Positions 15,811-44,300 of a DNA stretch of 64,000 bases are shown piece after piece (positions within the stretch are counted from its first letter, which is position 1; the number at the start of each line of letters is the position of its first letter). Source of the DNA: Muricea muricata (lineage: Eukaryota > Cnidaria > Anthozoa > Malacalcyonacea > Plexauridae); assembly GCA_963855995.1 (NCBI GenBank), contig OY979719.1, positions 806,001 through 870,000 of the forward strand, in the 5' to 3' direction. The translations under genes and the position numbers were made by a program. The notes under the pieces were generated by a model. It saw only the letters and a program-made list of their open reading frames with translations. It was not told where the DNA came from and made no database searches.

Positions 15811-18249
15811 TTACACTTTAGTTTCACTCTGCACCAACATAGGCTTTTCAGCCTTTCTAAGAAATAGGTTTTTCCACAATGCGAGAACATTCCTTTTACA
15901 TGCAAATGCAAGGAAAATGTACACGCCCTGAAATGCGGTAAGAATGACGAACACGTAGGAAAATATCGGGAAAAGTACGGCAAGAAAAGCGGAGGCCCAA
16001 CCTAATCCGACAACGGTTGCGATTTTAAGATGTACACCGACTAGACGTTTCTCTTGCTTCTGAGCCCGCAACATTTGCCGATTCTTTTCGTGTTTACGCA
16101 TCTTGAGGATACTTCGTGTAAACCAGATTATGTTGAAGGCTACGGCGAGGCAGACGGGTATGTAGACAATGGCGAAAACATGCTTCCCTGAGAGCCAACA
16201 GCTTTTGGTGAACTGTATGTCAAGAACATTGCAGTAATAAAATACGCAACATATTACGACGAAGACCAAAGGAATAGACCACACGATCAGGAAGCACTTC
16301 GCCTGAGAAGTTGAGTTTTTCCGTTGATGAGCAATTGGATCAGTAAACATGGACAATGTATCATATGCGATCTTAGCCATGCTTAGATGAACAAATAACA
16401 TGAAGTACTGAATCACGAACGCTGTCGCTGTGCACAGTGGACCAATTCGGACTGCCTGTGGGCTCAACAACCACACCAGGTCTAGCATTACCAAACCGAC
16501 CATCAAATTTATGATATTCTTTCCAGGAAGGTTTCGAAGTTGCGAAAATGTTATGTAAGTTACCAACACAAGCATTGAGCAAAATATTGACAAGGACAAG
16601 CCGATGATAGTCATGTATCCCCTTACGCTATCACTACTGTCTCGGAGCGCTATGTGACAAATATACACTTGGTTTTTCTGTAATGAGTACTCACCAAACT
16701 GATACAATTTTCCCCTAAGTTTATGATATAATGATAAGTTAGCGCGAACTTCGAATTCTTCTTCGTCATATGCCATATGGAAACCAGTACAATCGCTCGG
16801 CAATTGTTTTTCGCACACTCCAACCAAACCTTTGGTCGAGTCAACTTTGAAGTATTGATCTCTGGTATAGTTTCGCCTCGTTTCATGCACGTATATCTTA
16901 CCGTGTTCGAGTGTTGTATAATCTGATGCGTTAAAAACCTTCAGTCCAACGCACCCTAGCTGACGGGACGTGGTCTTTATAACTGTGACTTTTTGCGAAC
17001 CGATAAAAAGAGAAAACCGTGTGGTGAATGGCTTGATGAACTTAACGATTGAATAAGAAGTAACGTTAGCAGAATCTCGTTTCATATCGGAATAGTTTTT
17101 CAACACGTCTATACTTTGGTTTAACGTCAGTTGTACGTCGAATGTTACCATATATGCGTTCTGTAATTCCACGTTTTTGAGCACAGCATTGAATATATTG
17201 CCTGGTTCAACGTCGGTGAAGCAGCTTTGAAGATTAGTAATATTTCTATTGTCGCAGAATGAATACGACGAGTAAAACCATATAGCTATTTTATACTTGT
17301 CCAAGACTGCGTCAATTGGGGCGACTATGTCATCCGAGTCAACGCATGCTTTAAGATGATGGTCGTACACACGTTTCGGGCATATATAGTTAACAGAGTA
17401 ACCCCTGGATTGAAACTGGTGCCTGAAGTTTATTGTCAGATAAAAGTCGAATGTAACTTCTCGAACTGAATGTCGACTGCATGTTGAATTGCAGTACCTT
17501 CGAGGCATGTCGCTTTTCGGAACGAAACTATTTCTAATTGAATGGTTGTTCGCGAATTCGAGTAAGAAATCAATTAAATCTCCCATACTTTGAATACCAA
17601 CTGGTTGGAAATTCAATGGCATACTAACCTCCCAATTTTCGAAGTTATCTTGATGATTGCATCGAGCGCAATGGCGATTTCTGTAGGTGATGTTATCTTG
17701 AGCCCCCAGCACAGGAATGAGATCGAAATACGTTGACGAATTGATACGAGATGGCTGATTAACGCACAAAGATTCAACTTCATCATGCGGCCACGATTTA
17801 AAGCATTTATTTTTCATCCAATACCTTTCATCACCTAGGCTAACACAAGACCACGGCTGAAGAAAATCCTCTTTGATTTTGGTCGAGCTTCGCTCGTGCT
17901 TACTTGCATTGCCAGAGTTCCAATAATCATTGCAGCAATCTTGAAAGGACTGGCAGTAAGCATCGCAGTAGCAGCGAGTAGATTCAATAGTATAATCATA
18001 GGAAGAACCAAGTTGATCTGGACAGGAACCTTGGGGACAGGAGAAGTTCTGGTTTCCAGAACTATTTGTTGTGGAATTCTGTACGTCTTGGCGCGTTGAC
18101 GAATTGCGAGGAGATCTCTTGCTCGAACTACAGTTTTCGTTTGAACTCCGTACCATGATTTCCGTCACATTCTCCACATTCTGGGCAATTACCAACAACC
18201 TAGAGAGACAAGTGCACAAAAGCAACCGACAAAAGACGGCGAATTTCAT
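15811..18249 (-). CDS. intronless secretin-like (family B2/Methuselah-type) 7TM receptor with somatomedin-B-like N-terminus
   Basis: A single 812-codon open frame on the minus strand. It has an N-terminal signal peptide (residues 1-22), a Cys-rich somatomedin-B-like segment at about 71-107 (CYCDAYC, then DCCNDYW), and a long extracellular region with many Asn-x-Ser/Thr sites. A C-terminal seven-helix domain starts near residue 543 with GYMTIIGLSLSIF and ends near 785 before a short basic tail (KRNVLALWKN). The helix order and a Cys shortly before TM1 fit secretin-superfamily GPCRs. I see no canonical GPS cleavage motif (HLT/HLS), so autoproteolysis is not supported. The paralogue at 24948-27461 shares the layout, but this gene lacks a Cys-containing segment of about 55 residues after the RRYC motif. 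The ligand is unknown. It is tail-to-tail with the matrix gene. Confidence 0.88.
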   Translation of the reverse strand: MKFAVFCRLLLCTCLSRLLVIAQNVENVTEIMVRSSNENCSSSKRSPRNSSTRQDVQNSTTNSSGNQNFSCPQGSCPDQLGSSYDYTIESTRCYCDAYCQSFQDCCNDYWNSGNASKHERSSTKIKEDFLQPWSCVSLGDERYWMKNKCFKSWPHDEVESLCVNQPSRINSSTYFDLIPVLGAQDNITYRNRHCARCNHQDNFENWEVSMPLNFQPVGIQSMGDLIDFLLEFANNHSIRNSFVPKSDMPRRYCNSTCSRHSVREVTFDFYLTINFRHQFQSRGYSVNYICPKRVYDHHLKACVDSDDIVAPIDAVLDKYKIAIWFYSSYSFCDNRNITNLQSCFTDVEPGNIFNAVLKNVELQNAYMVTFDVQLTLNQSIDVLKNYSDMKRDSANVTSYSIVKFIKPFTTRFSLFIGSQKVTVIKTTSRQLGCVGLKVFNASDYTTLEHGKIYVHETRRNYTRDQYFKVDSTKGLVGVCEKQLPSDCTGFHMAYDEEEFEVRANLSLYHKLRGKLYQFGEYSLQKNQVYICHIALRDSSDSVRGYMTIIGLSLSIFCSMLVLVTYITFSQLRNLPGKNIINLMVGLVMLDLVWLLSPQAVRIGPLCTATAFVIQYFMLFVHLSMAKIAYDTLSMFTDPIAHQRKNSTSQAKCFLIVWSIPLVFVVICCVFYYCNVLDIQFTKSCWLSGKHVFAIVYIPVCLAVAFNIIWFTRSILKMRKHEKNRQMLRAQKQEKRLVGVHLKIATVVGLGWASAFLAVLFPIFSYVFVILTAFQGVYIFLAFACKRNVLALWKNLFLRKAEKPMLVQSETKV

Positions 18250-20846
18250 TTTTTAAGCACACAGCGAGCTATTCTGGGTATTGTCAGCACATTAACGGAA
18301 CAGTACTAGTTCATTACAACAGCGTGCGGCAGTTTATACATTTCGTATCCGCGTTTTTAATTAAAACGTACCAGATCAAATCAACATCAGAATTGCTTTT
18401 ATTACTAAACTGCAATTTTGTCGCGGTAAACAGTAACTACTCATTCCCGGATGAATAATAGTACACGCCCACGTTGATCTATTAGTAGTGGTAACAGAAT
18501 GATTTCGAGCGCAATTTGGAGGGAAAAAATGAACGAGCAAAACAGGAAAAAATTATAAATTGTACGAGTTTTCGAAGAACAAGTTGAATGCTTGAAAAAG
18601 ACGCACGCGCGGCTGCTTTACTTTGATTTTCTTTGGAAAATACAGTGCTATATCTATTAATATAAAATTAATTAAAATAGTTATACAAAACCAAATTCAT
18701 TTCTCAAACTCATTTCCTCTCCATTTCCAAAATAAACACTTTAATCCTCATATACGCGAGAAACACAAATATTCATTAAGTCGAATGGACTTGTTTTGAA
18801 ATTGACGTGGAAATTAATATAAAGATGTCCGTCACTGTATATGTAAATATATATGCATTTTCACTCCTGTATCTGAATGGAACTACAAGCACTGAGAATA
18901 TAAATTTTGAAATATAACTTAAATATACATTTTATTATAATTTAAATATAAATTTTACGATTAGACATTAATATTTTGCGCTTTAATTGCGACTAGAGTC
19001 AAAACGTTTAGGCAAAACATTTGAGCAAATGGTTTTATGTGCACAAGGCGAAGTTTCAGGACAGAAAAGTGCTTAATTTACACAGCAAAATAATTTTAAT
19101 GATTTATACTACAATATAAGGTAAGAGTATACTTGGTCACAATACCTAAAGATGCATGGGACATGGAGAAACCTATATATTAATACACATCGTAGAGATA
19201 CCGCTCATTATAACTGAAACGTCAAGAGAAACATCCCAAAATTAAAAAAATTAAAACATTTAATTTCTGATTATGCACTATAAAGTTTCTTAATCGAGAC
19301 ATTTTTGTAGTTAAATAAATAAAGGCTACAAAGTTATCATATAAATTTCGTGATATGACCCAAGATATTCGTATAGTGTGCATCTTAGTAGTTTATTAAA
19401 GGGAAGCAATTAACAGCTCAAGCAGGATAGAGCAATGTACCTTAGAAAAGAAATATAAAAATTCACAAACCTCAATTGAACAGCACCGACATGTGTTTCA
19501 TTGTAGTGGTGAAGCATACAGGCTCAATATAGACCTAAAACAACAAAATGAGCTTTGCTACAATAAAAAGAAACTCTTAATAATTTTGCCGCAACTTGCA
19601 ACAAAATCTGATTTCAATGCACGTTCATAAAGAACATTCCTAGATGTGCGCATGTTAAGTAACCAAACTTTAGACAAGCAAATTTTGCTGCCATGCAAAT
19701 TAATATTATAATACAACTCACAATTCTGCTCTGTGTGGTGTTATAATTTTTATATTTACAATTTTATTTACAATAAAATGTATGTTCATACTAAGGAAAT
19801 GTTCTATAGGCGATATACAGGCTGTCCCAAAAAAATACCAAATTTTCTAATTGCAATAATTTAAATGGCTGAAGGTAAAAAGAGGTAAAATGTGTAATAA
19901 GATATTTAAATTCCGACGAAGACTTAAGCTTAATTTTAAAGAATATACATTTTACAATCTGCCAGGGTTCTGCATTGGTAATAAAGCATTCAAATTCTAA
20001 CAAAGCTTGATTTTAAAAATATGCTTTTAGAGGGGGGGGGGGGGCTGTAGATCTTTTCCACGTGATATCACGGCGGCCGGCAAGTTCGACTGTTTTGTTT
20101 TCTTTGCAATGTAGCAATTAAACTACTGATTTCTAGTTCTCATATATCGCCGATCATCAGTGAATCGTGGTCAATAACATTCAAAGTAAAAATGTTTTTT
20201 ACTCAGGAGCAATCACGGACGATCGAAGTCGCCGATGTTCGCGAAATATGAGAACCAGACTGTAAATCCAAGTGCTTTTACAGGAGTGCGATTCTTCTTT
20301 TGGAAGATGTGAAAGAGTGGATTTGTTACGGATCTCAACCATGGGGTCAAGTAGCAAAACCATTCACCGTTAATCTACTCTTTCACATCCATCAAAAGAA
20401 GAATGTTGCTAAAATCAGGCGCGTAAACGGAGCACAAAATACGTGTAACATTGTGGGTTTCAACTCGACGTGAGTAATAGCGAGGGATAGCGACGAGGCG
20501 GGAAGAACATTGACATTATAACAGCCATTTTATGTTGACTATGTTTTTTCTCCAACATGCAGTTCTCTCCAAAAACCTGCTGGCATTCGTCATTCCATTC
20601 TCTATATCAAGCTGCCATGGCTACTTGTGATCCTACAGAAAAAATTAACGGAGGAAATTTAATGTCACAGTACTTATTGTAAAGACTATTTCAAACTGTT
20701 CCAGGCATCTTTTACTGACGATGCTTTCTATTTCAAAACTCGCTTTCACAATTAGGATCAGACTGGTTCACTTTGATGTGGTCTGTAAACTTTGTAAATA
20801 CAGGTAACTGTCCCATGTTTATGGGAAGCCATGAGGGACGTATGCT
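18250..20846. other. intergenic region between the first receptor and the TTLL5 3' end
   Basis: This holds the receptor's promoter side and the probable 3' UTR of TTLL5. It is strongly AT-rich from 18640 to 20000, with no convincing exon. A run of 11 or more G lies near 20032, and the palindromic element at 20290-20405 is here. Confidence 0.55.
20290..20405. mobile_element. short palindromic MITE, copy 2
   Basis: The arms GATTCTTCTTTTGGAAGATG, GAAAGAGTGGATT and AATCTACTCTTTC, ATCCATCAAAAGAAGAAT are mutually complementary and match copy 1 at 15090-15214. It lies about 450 bp downstream of the TTLL5 stop codon. Confidence 0.78.
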
Positions 20847-35918
<15,072 letters not shown>

Positions 35919-37577: not shown

Positions 37578-40344
37578 ATGAAGTACAAGCTTCTAACCGT
37601 CTTTATTCTTTCAATAATATCTCGCATTGCTTCACGACCTGCTGGCCAGCCTGCTATGCCGTGCGATCCGACAAAATGTAAGCTGCCCGACTGCCGCTGT
37701 TCCAGCACCGAAATCCCAGGCGATTTACCTTCTTCGAACATCCCACAAATAGTCATGGTGAGCTTCGATGATGCAGTGAACGAGGAAAACATGAAATATT
37801 ACCAATCCCTTTTCCCTGGCAAATTTAACCCGAATGCTTGCCCCATTTCCGCCACGTTCTTTCTGTCTCACGAGTGGACCAACTACGTGATGGTGAATCA
37901 TTTGTACCATCAGCGTCATGCCATCGTCGACCATACTATCTCACATCGCACTCCCATCTCGTGGTGGAAAGAAGCTAACTATTCGCAATGGCAGCAGGAA
38001 GTCGTAGGTCAGCGAGAAATCATAAATACAACAGGATTTGTAGCCCTGGAAGATGTCAAGGGTTTCCGCGCTCCGTATCTGCAGATCGGAGGCGATAATG
38101 AGTTCAAGGTTTTACACGATGCGAAATTTCTTTTCGAGTCTTCAATGCCAAGCATGACGAGAGACGCTGCCTTACGACCGAATATATTCTATGATAGTTC
38201 GATTACCAAAGGGTGTCAAATACCGCCCTGTCCTAAAAGTAGAGTTAGTGACGAGTCTTCGATGCCAATCATGAAGAGTGACCAACTCCTATGGGGCTGT
38301 CCAATACCACCCTGTCCGAGAGGTATAGATAGTGCCGGACCTTCTATATCGACCTTGAAGAGAGGCCCTGCCCTCTGGCCGTATACATTCGACTACAGTT
38401 CGACCCAAGAATGTGTGATACCACCCTGCCCTAAAGGTATATATATATTGCTTATTAGTTAGGGGAAATGAAATTTGATGAGTTTTACAAGTACTTTCTA
38501 AAAGTTGATAGAAGAATTTTTGCTATGCGCACGGTTGTCGGTGAACACAATACATATTTGAAGCAAGAACGTTGCTCATTCGGCCCTCAAAACGAATGAA
38601 ACCAAAAATGGTGATATTTGAAGGAGCTATGACGTCAACCTGGATTGACGTCGTATTGCTCCTTAACTCTCTTCATATTTGGCTTCACTTTTTACACTGG
38701 AATTCCCGAACTGTCAATTCTAGCGATGTACTGTCACGCAATTCTAATTTTCGTGGCTAGAGTTGACATTAAGAAGCCAGCAAAGTCTTTGATCTAGGCT
38801 CTCATTCTGTAGTTCTAGCCTGGCCTGAGAGAGAAGCATTTCCTTTCCGCAGCCTGTAAAGTAGGCACAACAACAACTGGTAAAGCACCCTAGACAATTG
38901 TGAAATCAGGAATCAGTGTTCTGAAAAAATTATTGCTTTCCCTAGAAATGTTTCCATGTTTGCCATTTAAGAAATCTCAATATATATATAACGTGTTAAT
39001 TTTGGTTTGCGAAATACAAAATAGTGCTCAATGACATATAGACAGAGCAAAATATCTATATGTCTACACGGTCAGCAATTTATGTTGGAGGAAAAACTTA
39101 GTATTTTGAAAGAAAGAAAACAATTACTTGCTTAATCAAAGATCGGAAATAGTTTCGGCCTGCCAGCATAAAAATAGATTTAAGGTAAACAAGTTTAACA
39201 AACAAAGGAATGCATGCTATTTGAGCACCCACATGTCCACGTTTCCTCCTTAATAAAAGAAGCTCGCATGTTTTCGAAATTTGTCTACCATATATATATA
39301 TAATGTGTAATACAAAAGAGTGCTCAATGACATATAGACAGAGCGAAATATATAATGGCTCAAAATACCTCAAAAACTTACCACTACAATCTGTTTCATC
39401 CAGAAGGAATCTTTAGGTGGAAGATCTGAAGCCACCACCTGAAGATTCCTTCTGGATAAAACAGACTGTATTCAAGTCATAACAATCACTTAAATATACA
39501 TATAAGAAGATACATCAATCACTTTAGACTCGTACCCAGGCTTGTGGGAAGTGCCAATGATTGACTGGATTGACCTGTCAGGAGCACCCTGTAGTATGGT
39601 GGACGCATGCGCCGCACCAGCGAATGAAGAAGAAGCCTTAGAACTGTACATGAATAACTTTGACGCTCATTACACAACAAACCGCGCGCCATTTCCAATG
39701 TTCTTTCATGCAACTTGGTTTACGAGGTATCCTTATACGCTCTCAGGTAAGATGTGTGGATTTGACTGGCTCGGGCAAGTTCGTCATCAAGTCTGAGAAG
39801 CTCACACTTCAAGTTTTTAGACTTGCTGCAAGTTATTGAAGTCTTCACAATCATCATGCATCGGGCCTATTGATGACTTGCAGCAGTCTGGTTATCAAGC
39901 CGGAGCAAGCGATGCGAGCGCATTCTGATATCAGCTTGATGACTGCCAGGAACAGGCCTGCAGCAGACTTGCTGCAATATCAGGATGTGTAACATTAGTT
40001 TGGCCTAAATACTTATTTTGAACTTTTGCCCTTCAGCTCTGGATAAATTTTTCGAAAAGCTACTTGCAATGAAAGACGTTTGGATCGTAACAATCCCGCA
40101 AGCAATCGAATGGGTTCGGAATCCGACGACACTCGACAACCTTTCCGATTTCGCTCCGTGGAAATGCGAGGAGCCCGCTCCCCCCTTGGCCTGCGACGCT
40201 TCAACCCAGACCGTGTGTGGATATGACGCAAACAGAAGGCTGGTACAGCGTGGTCAACCGGCCGTGCATTATCTATTTTCTTGTCTACACGAATGTTTGA
40301 AATGTTATCCCTGGGTAGGTGACCCAAGAGGATCAAAATGCTAG
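37578..40344 (+). CDS. secreted chitin/polysaccharide deacetylase-like protein (CE4-type)
   Basis: Probably removes N-acetyl groups from extracellular chitin-like polysaccharide, or binds it. Exons 37578-38436, 39528-39746 and 40037-40344 total 1386 nt, giving 461 residues. Start: the ATG at 37578 opens directly into a signal peptide (MKYKLLTVFILSIISRIAS). Residues 29-41 form a short Cys-rich segment. NodB-type motifs: FDDA (63-66, metal and base Asp), DHTISH (118-123, metal His pair), GFRAPYL (162-168, motif 3), then WEVPMIDWIDL and FFHATW from exon 2. The motif set suggests an active site. Residues 187-286 hold three degenerate copies of a module ending IPPCP, whereas I would expect one in the family. 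Exon 3 carries IVTIPQAIEWVRNP and a Cys-rich tail. The last codon, TGC, precedes TAG, after which the same frame stays open and encodes a membrane helix (see 40345-40605). Confidence 0.87.
38136..38436 (+). repeat. triplicated Cys-Pro module within the deacetylase first exon
   Basis: Three degenerate copies occur at residues 187-221, 227-248 and 254-286. Each combines a Ser-Met-Pro or Ser-Ile-Ser start, a middle such as ALRPNIFYDSS or ALWPYTFDYSS, and an ending CQIPPCPK, CPIPPCPRG or CVIPPCPKG. The middle copy is shorter and lacks the FDY segment. In the family one such segment links the NodB core to the WEVP motif. Confidence 0.78.
38437..39527 (+). other. deacetylase intron 1 with small repeats
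   Basis: No exon was seen. A stretch of about 40 bp (GTGCTCAATGACATATAGACAG) occurs at about 39023-39048 and again at 39320-39345. A hairpin at 39389-39470 pairs CAGAAGGAATCTTTAGGTGG with CCACCTGAAGATTCCTTCTG. Confidence 0.6.
39389..39470. repeat. hairpin of about 82 bp in deacetylase intron 1
   Basis: The arms CAATCTGTTTCATCCAGAAG and CTTCTGGATAAAACAGACTG pair with few mismatches around a loop of about 12 bases. Likely a small MITE. Confidence 0.65.
39780..39990. repeat. degenerate CTTGCAGCA-rich repeat in deacetylase intron 2
   Basis: Recurring GACTTGCTGCAA, GACTTGCAGCAG and CAAGTTATTGAAG in both orientations give weak internal palindromes. It resembles the ACAAGTTGT repeat at 9880-10150 in style. 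No exon was seen. Confidence 0.45.
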
Positions 40345-40605
40345 ATTAGTAAAGTGAATCAAAATTCTCATACTTTCAAATTCATCAAATGGACTTGGCT
40401 TATTTTCGCTGTAATTGTAGTAGCATCTTCTTTGTTCCTAGTTTATCTTGTCAAAGTTGCTTTCAAAATTAAGCAAACTGCAAACACGAATGCAAATTTG
40501 GATATAATAGACACGGGTTATTTTGAGACAATGTGTATGGTTAATCTATCGACAATGTGTATGGTTAATTTATCGAATACATCTGTGAAACAAATTGACG
40601 TTTAA
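40345..40605 (+). other. in-frame extension after the deacetylase TAG encoding a transmembrane helix
   Basis: The frame of the deacetylase stays open for 85 codons after the TAG at 40342-40344, ending at TAA 40603-40605. It encodes a charged linker, a strongly hydrophobic helix (WLIFAVIVVASSLFLVYLV), a flanking basic stretch (KVAFKIKQ) and a short tail with a duplicated TMCMVNLS. That is the layout of a type I membrane anchor plus cytoplasmic tail. It could be translated by stop-codon readthrough, or the TAG may be a recent nonsense mutation, or the extension may be chance. The tail has no independent ATG before the helix. Confidence 0.5.
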
Positions 40606-41334
40606 GGTTCTTGTTGAGTTTGCATCGAGAAGCAAGAAGAAATGTTTTCCAACACAAGAAGATTTTGTCGTGAAAGCATTCTTGCCCAGTTTATCTAAAT
40701 GAGATGAGTCACTTTTTCCAACATTTTAATATAACAATAGGGGACGTTCGCGGGCATAAATATGTTTTTGGCTCGACTCAGAATTGATTTCAGCCCGAGC
40801 GTAGCGAGGGTTAAAATGAGCTCGTAGGAGAGCTAAAAACATATTTATGCACAAGAACATCAACTCTATTACTATTATAATAACTTTAAAGCAAAAATAT
40901 ATTTTAGCCCGCTGATTTGTTAATTTTAGCCTGCAAAATACGTCACAATGCTCACTACAGTTATTATAATACAGGTTATCGTGGGTAGCCCTGGAGTTTA
41001 TATCAACACACAAAAACACACGCACAAATTAGCAAAAATAAATACTTTGTTTAAAATATAAATTACATTTACTTTCAAGCATAAAATGAAATCAATCTAT
41101 TCCGTACTATTCTGTAACTCTGGCTAAACATTTTCTACAATTAAATAAAACAATAAAAGAACAGAGGAACGGAATACATCAACTCCATAAAATCTTTATT
41201 TGTCAGATAATTTCAATTTATCAATAATTTACAAGTATTATTTCCAATATACATCTAATGATAATCATAATAGAATCACATGATAGAATCAAACTGTGGT
41301 CATGGGGGATATTTTCTCTTTTGAGAATTGTGAG
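40606..41334. other. convergent intergenic region between the deacetylase and the Rho GEF
   Basis: This contains the 3' ends of both genes. A palindromic element lies at 40754-40850. A plus-strand AATAAA occurs at 41037-41042 and a minus-strand AATAAA at 41195-41200, the latter 135 nt past the GEF stop codon and a likely poly(A) signal. Confidence 0.6.
40754..40850. mobile_element. palindromic element of 97 bp downstream of the deacetylase
   Basis: GCATAAATATGTTTTTGGCTC pairs with the complement AGCTAAAAACATATTTATGC at the other end. The centre contains CCGAGCGTAGCGAGGG. No duplication of flanks was found. Confidence 0.7.
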
Positions 41335-44300
41335 TTATATAGTTGATCTGGAGTATCCGTCACAACTGAAGAATCCAAGACTGTTTCGGGACTGCTCGAT
41401 GACGATCTAAACAGAAAATGAGACAAGAATAAGCGTCTAAAAATGAAAACAAATATAAATCCAACATAACTTTAGGAACAAAATAAAGTATTCAACCACG
41501 AAAATTGAAAAATACTGCTAGTGTTTTACTGTGGTTCAGATCACCTGGTACAAAATAGCTTTGTCAATTTTACCTACTGTTCTCCCTAAAGGGTCACCAT
41601 CATCATTGCAGGAGGATACCGAATCTGAACTAACTCTCTTTATACTAGATATAGTTTCATCGATGGTAAACTGTTTTCGCTCTTGCAAAGAGTGACCCTT
41701 ACTGAACCGTCAGAAGAAGGTTGAGACGGGTCCACTAAGTCTTAAAACCACTTTCTATTCGGAGTTACTGTGGCGCGATATCGAGGATGAAAAAGATAAA
41801 AAGACAGAGTGTGTGAAGTTTCCATACCTTGTTTTTGAAATGAACAAATATCTCATAGCATTTGTAAAACTATTTCTTTTGTTCAACTTCTTCCAAGGTC
41901 TCTCGTTCTCATCGTCGTTATGTCCTTCCTGACTTCTTAATTTAACTTTATCCTTGTAATTATTGTTATTAATGACGTCACCTTCGCAGCTGTCGTGATG
42001 TGTCGTAGAATCGTCGGAATCACTGTGTTCACGTGACAGAGAATTTTCACGTGACAATGGAGAGTGTTCAGGGGGAAATGCAGAATGTTCTCGTGACAAA
42101 GGAGAGTGTTCACATGACTGCGTAGAATGTTCACGTGACAATTGAGAGTGTTCACATGACTGCGCAGAATGTTCACGTGACAATGGAGAGTGCGTACGTG
42201 CGAATGCAGAGTGTGCACGTGACAGTGGAATATGTTCACGTAATCCGGTACAATTTTCCATACTAGAGCATGAATGAAGCTTTTTATCATTAATAAAGTC
42301 ACTGTCTGATCTTGAACATTCATTAGCTTCGACAAAACAGTCATCTTCCGGGCTTCTTGGTCGGCGAGATTTAATGTCCAACTGCTCATCGCTAGATCTT
42401 GGCCGTCTTCGCAAGCTGTCAAATTTGTGTCGAATCATGCTGGAAAATGGAGAAAATACGAGTGTCAGTTTAGTTGACATACACAGTCTGTAGTTTTAGT
42501 ATTTCGAGTTCCCATTCTTTCTAGGGTGATTAGCACTCACACGTTAACTTTCGAACTATCTTACCTTCCAATACTGTCTCTACTGACAGACCGCATCAGT
42601 TCATCTTTAGCAGGACTCAGTGAATTATCTTTTCTACGATTGATCTCCACTTCAGTCATACTCAATGGCCGTCGTTTCCTTCGTTTCGATTCGCCACTAT
42701 TTCTAAGAATTACTTTCAGGAAATAACTTTTCGACGAAAAACTTCTAGAAAAAATAAATATAAATTCCCAATGAGGACCCAATGAGTATTAAGAAGTTTG
42801 ACGAGGAAACAAAAACCTGGGAATAATGTGGCAAATCATTGAACAGTATGTAGAATGAATTACAAAAAAAAAAACACACACACACAAACAGCTAAGTTCA
42901 CTCGTAATAGGCTAGAGTCTTCACAATACAGAGAGTAAAGGCTGTTTTCCAGTTACGCGTTTTTCACACGTGCGTACACGCACGTAAAACTCTAAATCCA
43001 TTTCAATATTACATTTGAAATGAACAATTGTTTACATTGAAAGAATTCAGCATTCCCTACGAGTTAGCATGTTTTAGTGATTCTATTTGTTAAATACAAA
43101 CTACTTAGACGAGTTTAAACATTTACGTGCGTGTACGTACGTGTGAAAAACGGATAACTGGAAAGCAGCCTTAAATCAGAGCAAAATACTAGTTTTTTGT
43201 TACTCACCCAGACGGTGACGGTGATCTTGGTTCAGAGGGTGTTTCGCTATTCGTAAGTGAGCCGTACCCTGAAGATTTCTGATCAGCGGTGGGTGAAGTG
43301 CCGTCTATGGCCAGCGGTGATAAGTCTTGCGCATGTGGAGTGGATGGAGTCGAGGCTTCTGATAAGTCAGAGTCATCCGAGGATTTTCTAGTGAAACAAA
43401 TAAAAAATGTTAAACTGGACTAAACTAAAGATAATAAGATGAGAAATCACAGTTCATTCCTGATCAACACCTCAGTCACAGAGACTAGAGACAGATACAC
43501 TAATCAATCCTGAAAATTTTTATATTAATTCTCAGTCATATTTACCTTGGACTGCTAGCGCATTCAGAATTTCCCGAATCTCTTGGTTTGAAAATGTGTC
43601 TTTTTCTTCTGGAATAAAAACAACATACATCACTTTAAAACAAGAACGGATCAAAAGCTACATAAAAGGTGTACACAAGCGAAAGGTAAAAGATGAAAAA
43701 TGATCAACTACACTCGTTTTACCTTTTCCTCGAAGAGCGTCTTGTGCTCGCATTTCTCGCGAGTCTAGTGGAGTTTTGAATGGAGCTGTTCAAGATGTTG
43801 ATAATATGGATCATTTTCTCCAGAGAGATTTCAATATGAAAACTATCAGGATGGTTTGGGTCGGTGTATTTCGCCAGTTGCTACAAGAAAAATAAAAACT
43901 TGTTATAGGTTTCCACAACCGCGATACAGCCTGATACGCCTTATTGTGCAACCCAGTTGAACCAGAGACAAAATTTCGAAAGAAATAGCTCTAAGCTTCT
44001 TAACAGCCACGATTTGGTTGAAACTTATGCCAACCCAAACTTAAGCTACCTGGCTTTGAACAACCTGCTCGAACTTATTATATTTTAAACAAAAACAACA
44101 ATGTTACAACCGTGATACCAAGGACAGTGGTGATAGTGGTTTGTGAAAAAGAAAATCCACACATACCCTCAGCAAAAGAACGTATCTTGGTAAGCGCTGG
44201 ATGGGAGTGAGAAGAAACGCAGAAATACTAAGACGTTCGCATCTCGGGTCGTTGCCGCATTTCTGGAAATGAATTAAGATCCCAACATTAACACAATGTA

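Follow-up and report, generated by a model that had tools for sequence, protein, structure and literature searches.

An open frame with a hydrophobic helix behind the stop codon of a Muricea muricata deacetylase gene: possibly a chance feature of its 3' UTR

Main finding

In the 64-kb stretch of Muricea muricata DNA that was analysed as a whole, hereafter the window, a gene for a chitin-deacetylase-type enzyme ends at a TAG codon, and the same frame remains open behind it and encodes a complete hydrophobic helix. The likeliest single reading, which we nevertheless place below even odds, is that of a secreted enzyme with an open frame lying behind its stop by chance. The enzyme, with a likely signal peptide, a catalytic domain and a Cys-rich end, would terminate at the TAG, while the following 86-codon frame would be 3' UTR, open and hydrophobic by accident; the gene would be one of the chance cases that are to be expected, and no membrane form would be made. 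A lost membrane anchor, a splice switch and stop-codon readthrough are together about as likely as this chance frame. The sequence-only reading of the window had offered readthrough or a recent nonsense change; a chance frame in the 3' UTR and an alternative intron fit as well as or better than either of these.

Several observations favour the chance frame: the TAG is near the usual end of the enzyme, the genome null predicts about one case of this kind, the codon score resembles that of non-coding DNA, the stop context is not a leaky one, RNA structure is absent and the searches gave no convincing relative of the extension. Against it speak a three-base periodicity above expectation, the weakness of the codon test, a frame-preserving tail repeat, and the sensible position of the helix, directly behind an extracellular enzyme. 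If the extension is or was used, a single codon or a small intron sets where the enzyme works, at the cell surface or in the secreted matrix, and related animals would lend themselves to a direct comparison. If it is a product of chance, the gene is a yardstick: since roughly one frame of this kind is to be expected in a genome, finding a helix downstream of a stop is insufficient evidence by itself.

The deacetylase gene and its product

The gene model consists of the following parts:

37578-40344, + strand: deacetylase gene of three exons, 461 amino acids before the TAG in this gene model
37578..38436, + strand: exon 1, hydrophobic N-terminus and catalytic half (FDD, HTISH and RAPYL motifs), with a duplicated 3' end
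39528..39746, + strand: exon 2, SYPGLWEVPMIDW...NRAPFPMFFHATW
40037..40344, + strand: exon 3, Cys-rich C-terminal end ...CYPWVGDPRGSKC, then TAG (40342-40344)

Both introns are of the GT-AG type and in phase 1, giving a single continuous frame of 461 codons up to the TAG. The polysaccharide deacetylase domain of Pfam (PF01522) is recognized in exon 1 with 24.4 bits (cut-off 23.1, E 3e-5), exons 1, 2 and 3 each match insect chitin deacetylases of solved structure, and the model covers these relatives over almost their whole length. FDD, HxxxH and RxP are the metal-binding and catalytic motifs of such enzymes, and the corresponding residues D39, D40, H94, H98, R139 and P141 are invariant in an alignment of three sequences. 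The catalytic region is 44% and 42% identical to that of 5z34 and 5zns, respectively, with the FDD, HxxxH and R-x-P motifs in common, and the C-terminal end YPW..DP.G is also similar; we take these two structures to be BmCDA8 and BmCDA1 from silkworm. Unlike them, the window enzyme carries up to 66 additional residues, depending on the donor used, from the catalytic region to SYPGLWEVP. At the N-terminus, residues 5-23 have a KD19 of 1.36, the top value among stretches starting before residue 400; on hydropathy, this would be compatible with a signal peptide. By type, the product appears to be a chitin-deacetylase-type enzyme of carbohydrate esterase family 4, probably secreted.

The end of exon 1 (38135-38445) is duplicated, with an 84-nt unit in two copies that are 70% identical and an IPPCP stretch that occurs three times. 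A possible weak phase-1 donor closes each repeat copy, at 38239, 38323 and 38437, with scores of -3.21, -0.45 and 0.21. Use of the first would make the protein 66 residues shorter and gives 44% identity to joined pieces of one insect chitin deacetylase with 6 gap positions; use of the last gives 38% with 70 gap positions. Intron 1 contains a direct repeat of 50 nt (39013-39062 and 39309-39357, 92%). A further 86 nt of this intron, 39385-39470, match their own reverse complement (83%). Elsewhere in the window, 15814-18252 and 24951-27533 (- strand) are single-exon open frames of 813 and 861 amino acids, presumably receptor-like, as judged by eye, with a Cys-rich, somatomedin-B-like start, and 28036-28439 is a low-complexity repeat array that is open in several frames.

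The open frame behind the stop codon

The features behind the enzyme are these:

40345..40602, + strand: open downstream frame of 86 sense codons, closed by TAA at 40603-40605
40396..40452, + strand: codons of a 19-residue hydrophobic helix, WLIFAVIVVASSLFLVYLV, Kyte-Doolittle mean (KD19) 2.66
40527..40576, + strand: 24-nt tandem repeat in the tail, 2.1 copies, which differ at a synonymous Leu position

The TAG that had been noticed at the end of the enzyme is present, in the frame of exon 3, and the helix downstream of it is as described. The frame is indeed open, its length being 86 sense codons where 85 had been counted. Of the flanks that had been assigned to the helix, Trp on the outer side stands, while Lys is found on both sides (FKFIKWTW before, KVAFKIK after) and not inside alone, so that the flanks agree only weakly with the charge rule for orientation.

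The TAG is the fourth codon past YPWVGDPRG, and the matches in two silkworm chitin deacetylase chains stop 6 and 10 residues short of the chain end (363/369 and 375/385). The stop is therefore near the normal end of these enzymes, with no recognised part lost. In the assembled DNA the TAG stands between the enzyme and the helix, and a type I anchored form would need splicing, readthrough or another allele. In 40341-41400, polyadenylation-like hexamers occur only at 41037, 41140 and 41152, and therefore the downstream frame is probably within the mRNA. GC content shows no step at the TAG; its best change point is at 40268, within exon 3. Behind the gene, the 97-nt stretch 40754-40850 resembles an imperfect hairpin or a small mobile element in matching its own reverse complement (73%).

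Other origins of the extension were considered and rejected. An independent start is contradicted by the first in-frame ATG, which comes after the helix; membership of a repeat family by the lack of a further copy in the window or genome; and the Pfam match to DUF7248 scores 17.1 bits, below the cut-off of 27. Among solved structures, the open hydrophobic frame has no match.

How often chance gives such a frame

With exons masked, the window has 6264 stops; behind 64 of them 86 or more codons are open, and behind four there is a helix of at least 2.66, one of these four being a receptor-like long open frame. Simulated sequence reaches the open length in 0.2-0.5% and the helix in 0.005-0.1% of cases. 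A broader null was drawn from twenty 10-kb stretches in other parts of the genome, which amount to 195 kb once N is discounted, keep their real genes and contain 22,071 stops. After 247 of these stops 86 or more codons stay open; an equally hydrophobic helix follows 11, starting within 31 codons in 9, and the combination of a helix within 31 codons with at least 86 open codons is seen once. Animal genomes usually hold about 25,000 genes, so that 11 and 1 in 22,071 correspond to about 12 and about 1 chance cases per genome, the latter figure being derived from a single event. For any single stop, such a near helix in an 86-codon frame is therefore a rare event, but a whole genome should contain about one gene of this kind by chance. 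Furthermore, chance stays a serious explanation because the finding was picked by a reader seeking striking things.

Does the extension look translated?

On codon usage, with the tested gene excluded from the model each time, the extension scores -0.058. The mean is -0.051 for stop-free non-coding stretches (n=92) and 0.028 for coding segments (n=54); four of the 54 held-out coding segments score at or below the extension and 50 score higher. The 12 held-out coding segments that contain a helix average -0.015 (minimum -0.084), indicating that a helix by itself lowers the codon score. When synonymous choice only is counted, the extension (-0.046) falls below all 12 of these helix-containing segments (minimum -0.031), and it is at or above 22 of the 92 non-coding stretches.

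Periodicity gives a different picture. The three-base position asymmetry of the extension tops all 256 non-coding segments of the window; among stop-free segments, the fairer control, it is reached by 1 of 44 and the chi value by 2 of 44. Simulated stop-free sequence reaches this periodicity in 0.3-0.5%. With one repeat copy dropped, 8 of 344 stop-free non-coding stretches of the genome attain the directional periodicity score; the corresponding figures are 19 of 252 for the whole extension, 10 of 766 without the helix and one repeat copy, and 20 of 1837 for the 42-codon tail without the helix. The weight of this directional test is small, since the coding mean (0.039) is barely above the non-coding one (0.013). 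The 24-nt tail repeat keeps the frame and the single difference between its copies is synonymous. In short, the coding tests disagree and do not decide: periodicity leans towards coding, codon choice towards non-coding.

Relatives in genomes and literature

The genome that was searched is a 453-Mb assembly of 74 contigs, which includes the window. Queries with exons 1, 2 and 3, a silkworm chitin deacetylase and two motif patterns found no second deacetylase copy. Exons 1 and 2 have no further match in it, and the next match of exon 3 has an E-value of 0.82; the insect chitin deacetylase query returns the window gene and otherwise only a match with E 4.07. The first motif pattern occurs at seven places including the window gene; five of the six others were read and are no deacetylase, and the sixth, L014, has its motif letters in common with L010. 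The second occurs at 14 places, again including the window gene, and none of the 13 other frames, all of which were read, is deacetylase-like. For the extension, the only match at a convincing E-value is itself, the others having E-values of 0.48 and 0.5. A PF01522 search of the genome failed to recover the window gene itself, so the sensitivity of these searches is limited, short exons could escape them, and the absence of a second copy is not proven.

The public collections that were searched gave no animal orthologue of the deacetylase, and the viral contigs gave neither a deacetylase relative nor a convincing relative of the extension. One bacterial relative was found, in a metagenome-assembled genome of the KSB1 division (L001:7920-9539), with 32% identity in the best segment and a C-terminal part of a different type. 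Among the open-licence papers searched, none was found to describe the extension or a cnidarian deacetylase that undergoes readthrough. Passages of four papers place deacetylases in cnidarians: the Pfam domain is enriched in Hydra (PMC7642931), Hydractinia stolons have deacetylases among their chitin-related genes (PMC11876637), in Acropora tenuis a deacetylase marks glandular cells (PMC8270879), and a Stylophora protein table includes one (PMC5762905); these passages make no mention of a membrane anchor.

Readings in which the extension is or was used

It is unlikely that the gene formerly encoded a type I membrane-anchored deacetylase, in which a nonsense change (fixed, allelic or an error of the assembly) created the TAG, released the enzyme and left the anchor codons to decay. 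The anatomy fits, with a full helix, a Trp flank, a tail and a stop of its own; the periodicity of the extension leans coding, and such a frame is rare by chance. On the other hand, the codon choice of the extension is not coding-like, weak as that test is, the TAG is near the usual end of this type of enzyme, and no anchored paralogue was found in the genome.

A splice switch is quite unlikely. It would make use of one further feature:

40319..40420, + strand: candidate GT-AG intron of 102 nt with weak sites, unproven, whose removal would take out the TAG in frame

Retention of this stretch would give the secreted enzyme, and its removal would join ...CYPWV to VASSLFLVYLVKVAFKIKQ... in frame, giving a membrane-anchored one. 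The frame is kept and, once joined, stays open to the TAA. The donor scores 2.3, as against 0.21 and 6.92 for the donors of exons 1 and 2, and the pyrimidine fraction before the acceptor is 0.69, as against 0.50 and 0.75 at the two acceptors of the model. Of 4438 TAGs in randomly chosen parts of the genome, 35 have a comparable pair of sites, although the thresholds, being the candidate's own scores, were set post hoc. By eye, a CTTAT word that resembles a branch-point motif places its A some 18 nt upstream of the acceptor. The T-rich tract in front of this acceptor would also account for some of the hydrophobicity of the frame, as codons rich in T specify hydrophobic residues. However, the conserved GDPRG would be lost in the splice, the helix that is left over is weaker (KD19 1.82), the better half of the original helix would lie in the intron, and a donor at 40315, 4 nt further upstream and slightly stronger (score 3.0), would lead to an immediate stop. 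The pairing of that donor with the acceptor at 40420 was discarded, as it runs straight into a stop (phase determined by hand); acceptors just past the TAG (40344, 40349 and 40354), with pyrimidine fractions of 0.25-0.38 and hence little tract, were discarded as well. More generally, it is unlikely that this single gene yields a secreted enzyme as well as a membrane-anchored one, by means of an optional, stop-bearing intron of 102 nt or by readthrough, so that polysaccharide could be modified either on the cell surface or far from it.

Readthrough of the stop codon, the first proposal of the sequence-only reading, is disfavoured and a minor membrane-bound deacetylase made in this way is very improbable: the open frame with its complete helix does share an exon with the TAG and is probably part of the mRNA (polyadenylation-like hexamers at 41037, 41140 and 41152), and the cryptic MDH1 targeting signal reported in Hydra (PMC4207609) suggests that such extensions may exist in cnidarians, but TGC TAG ATT does not match the leaky UGA CUA context, and the 126 nt of 40345-40470 fold no better than shuffled sequence (z +1.29; 184 of 200 shuffles at least as good), leaving the UAG AUU without a stable structure downstream.

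Comparison with known systems

Peroxisomal LDHB and MDH1 are enzymes that are extended by readthrough and thereby gain a second location, according to passages of PMC4359377 and PMC4207609. What the window gene would share with them is the notion of an in-frame targeting element after the stop; they use UGA CUA, whereas the window gene has UAG AUU and no downstream structure. In the reported assay, replacement of UGA by UAG lowered readthrough.

A second comparison concerns mRNA processing. Splice switches between the secreted and the membrane form of one protein are well known. The window gene differs from them in offering a candidate intron only. Like them, it would be one gene whose product is either anchored or released, depending on how its mRNA is processed.
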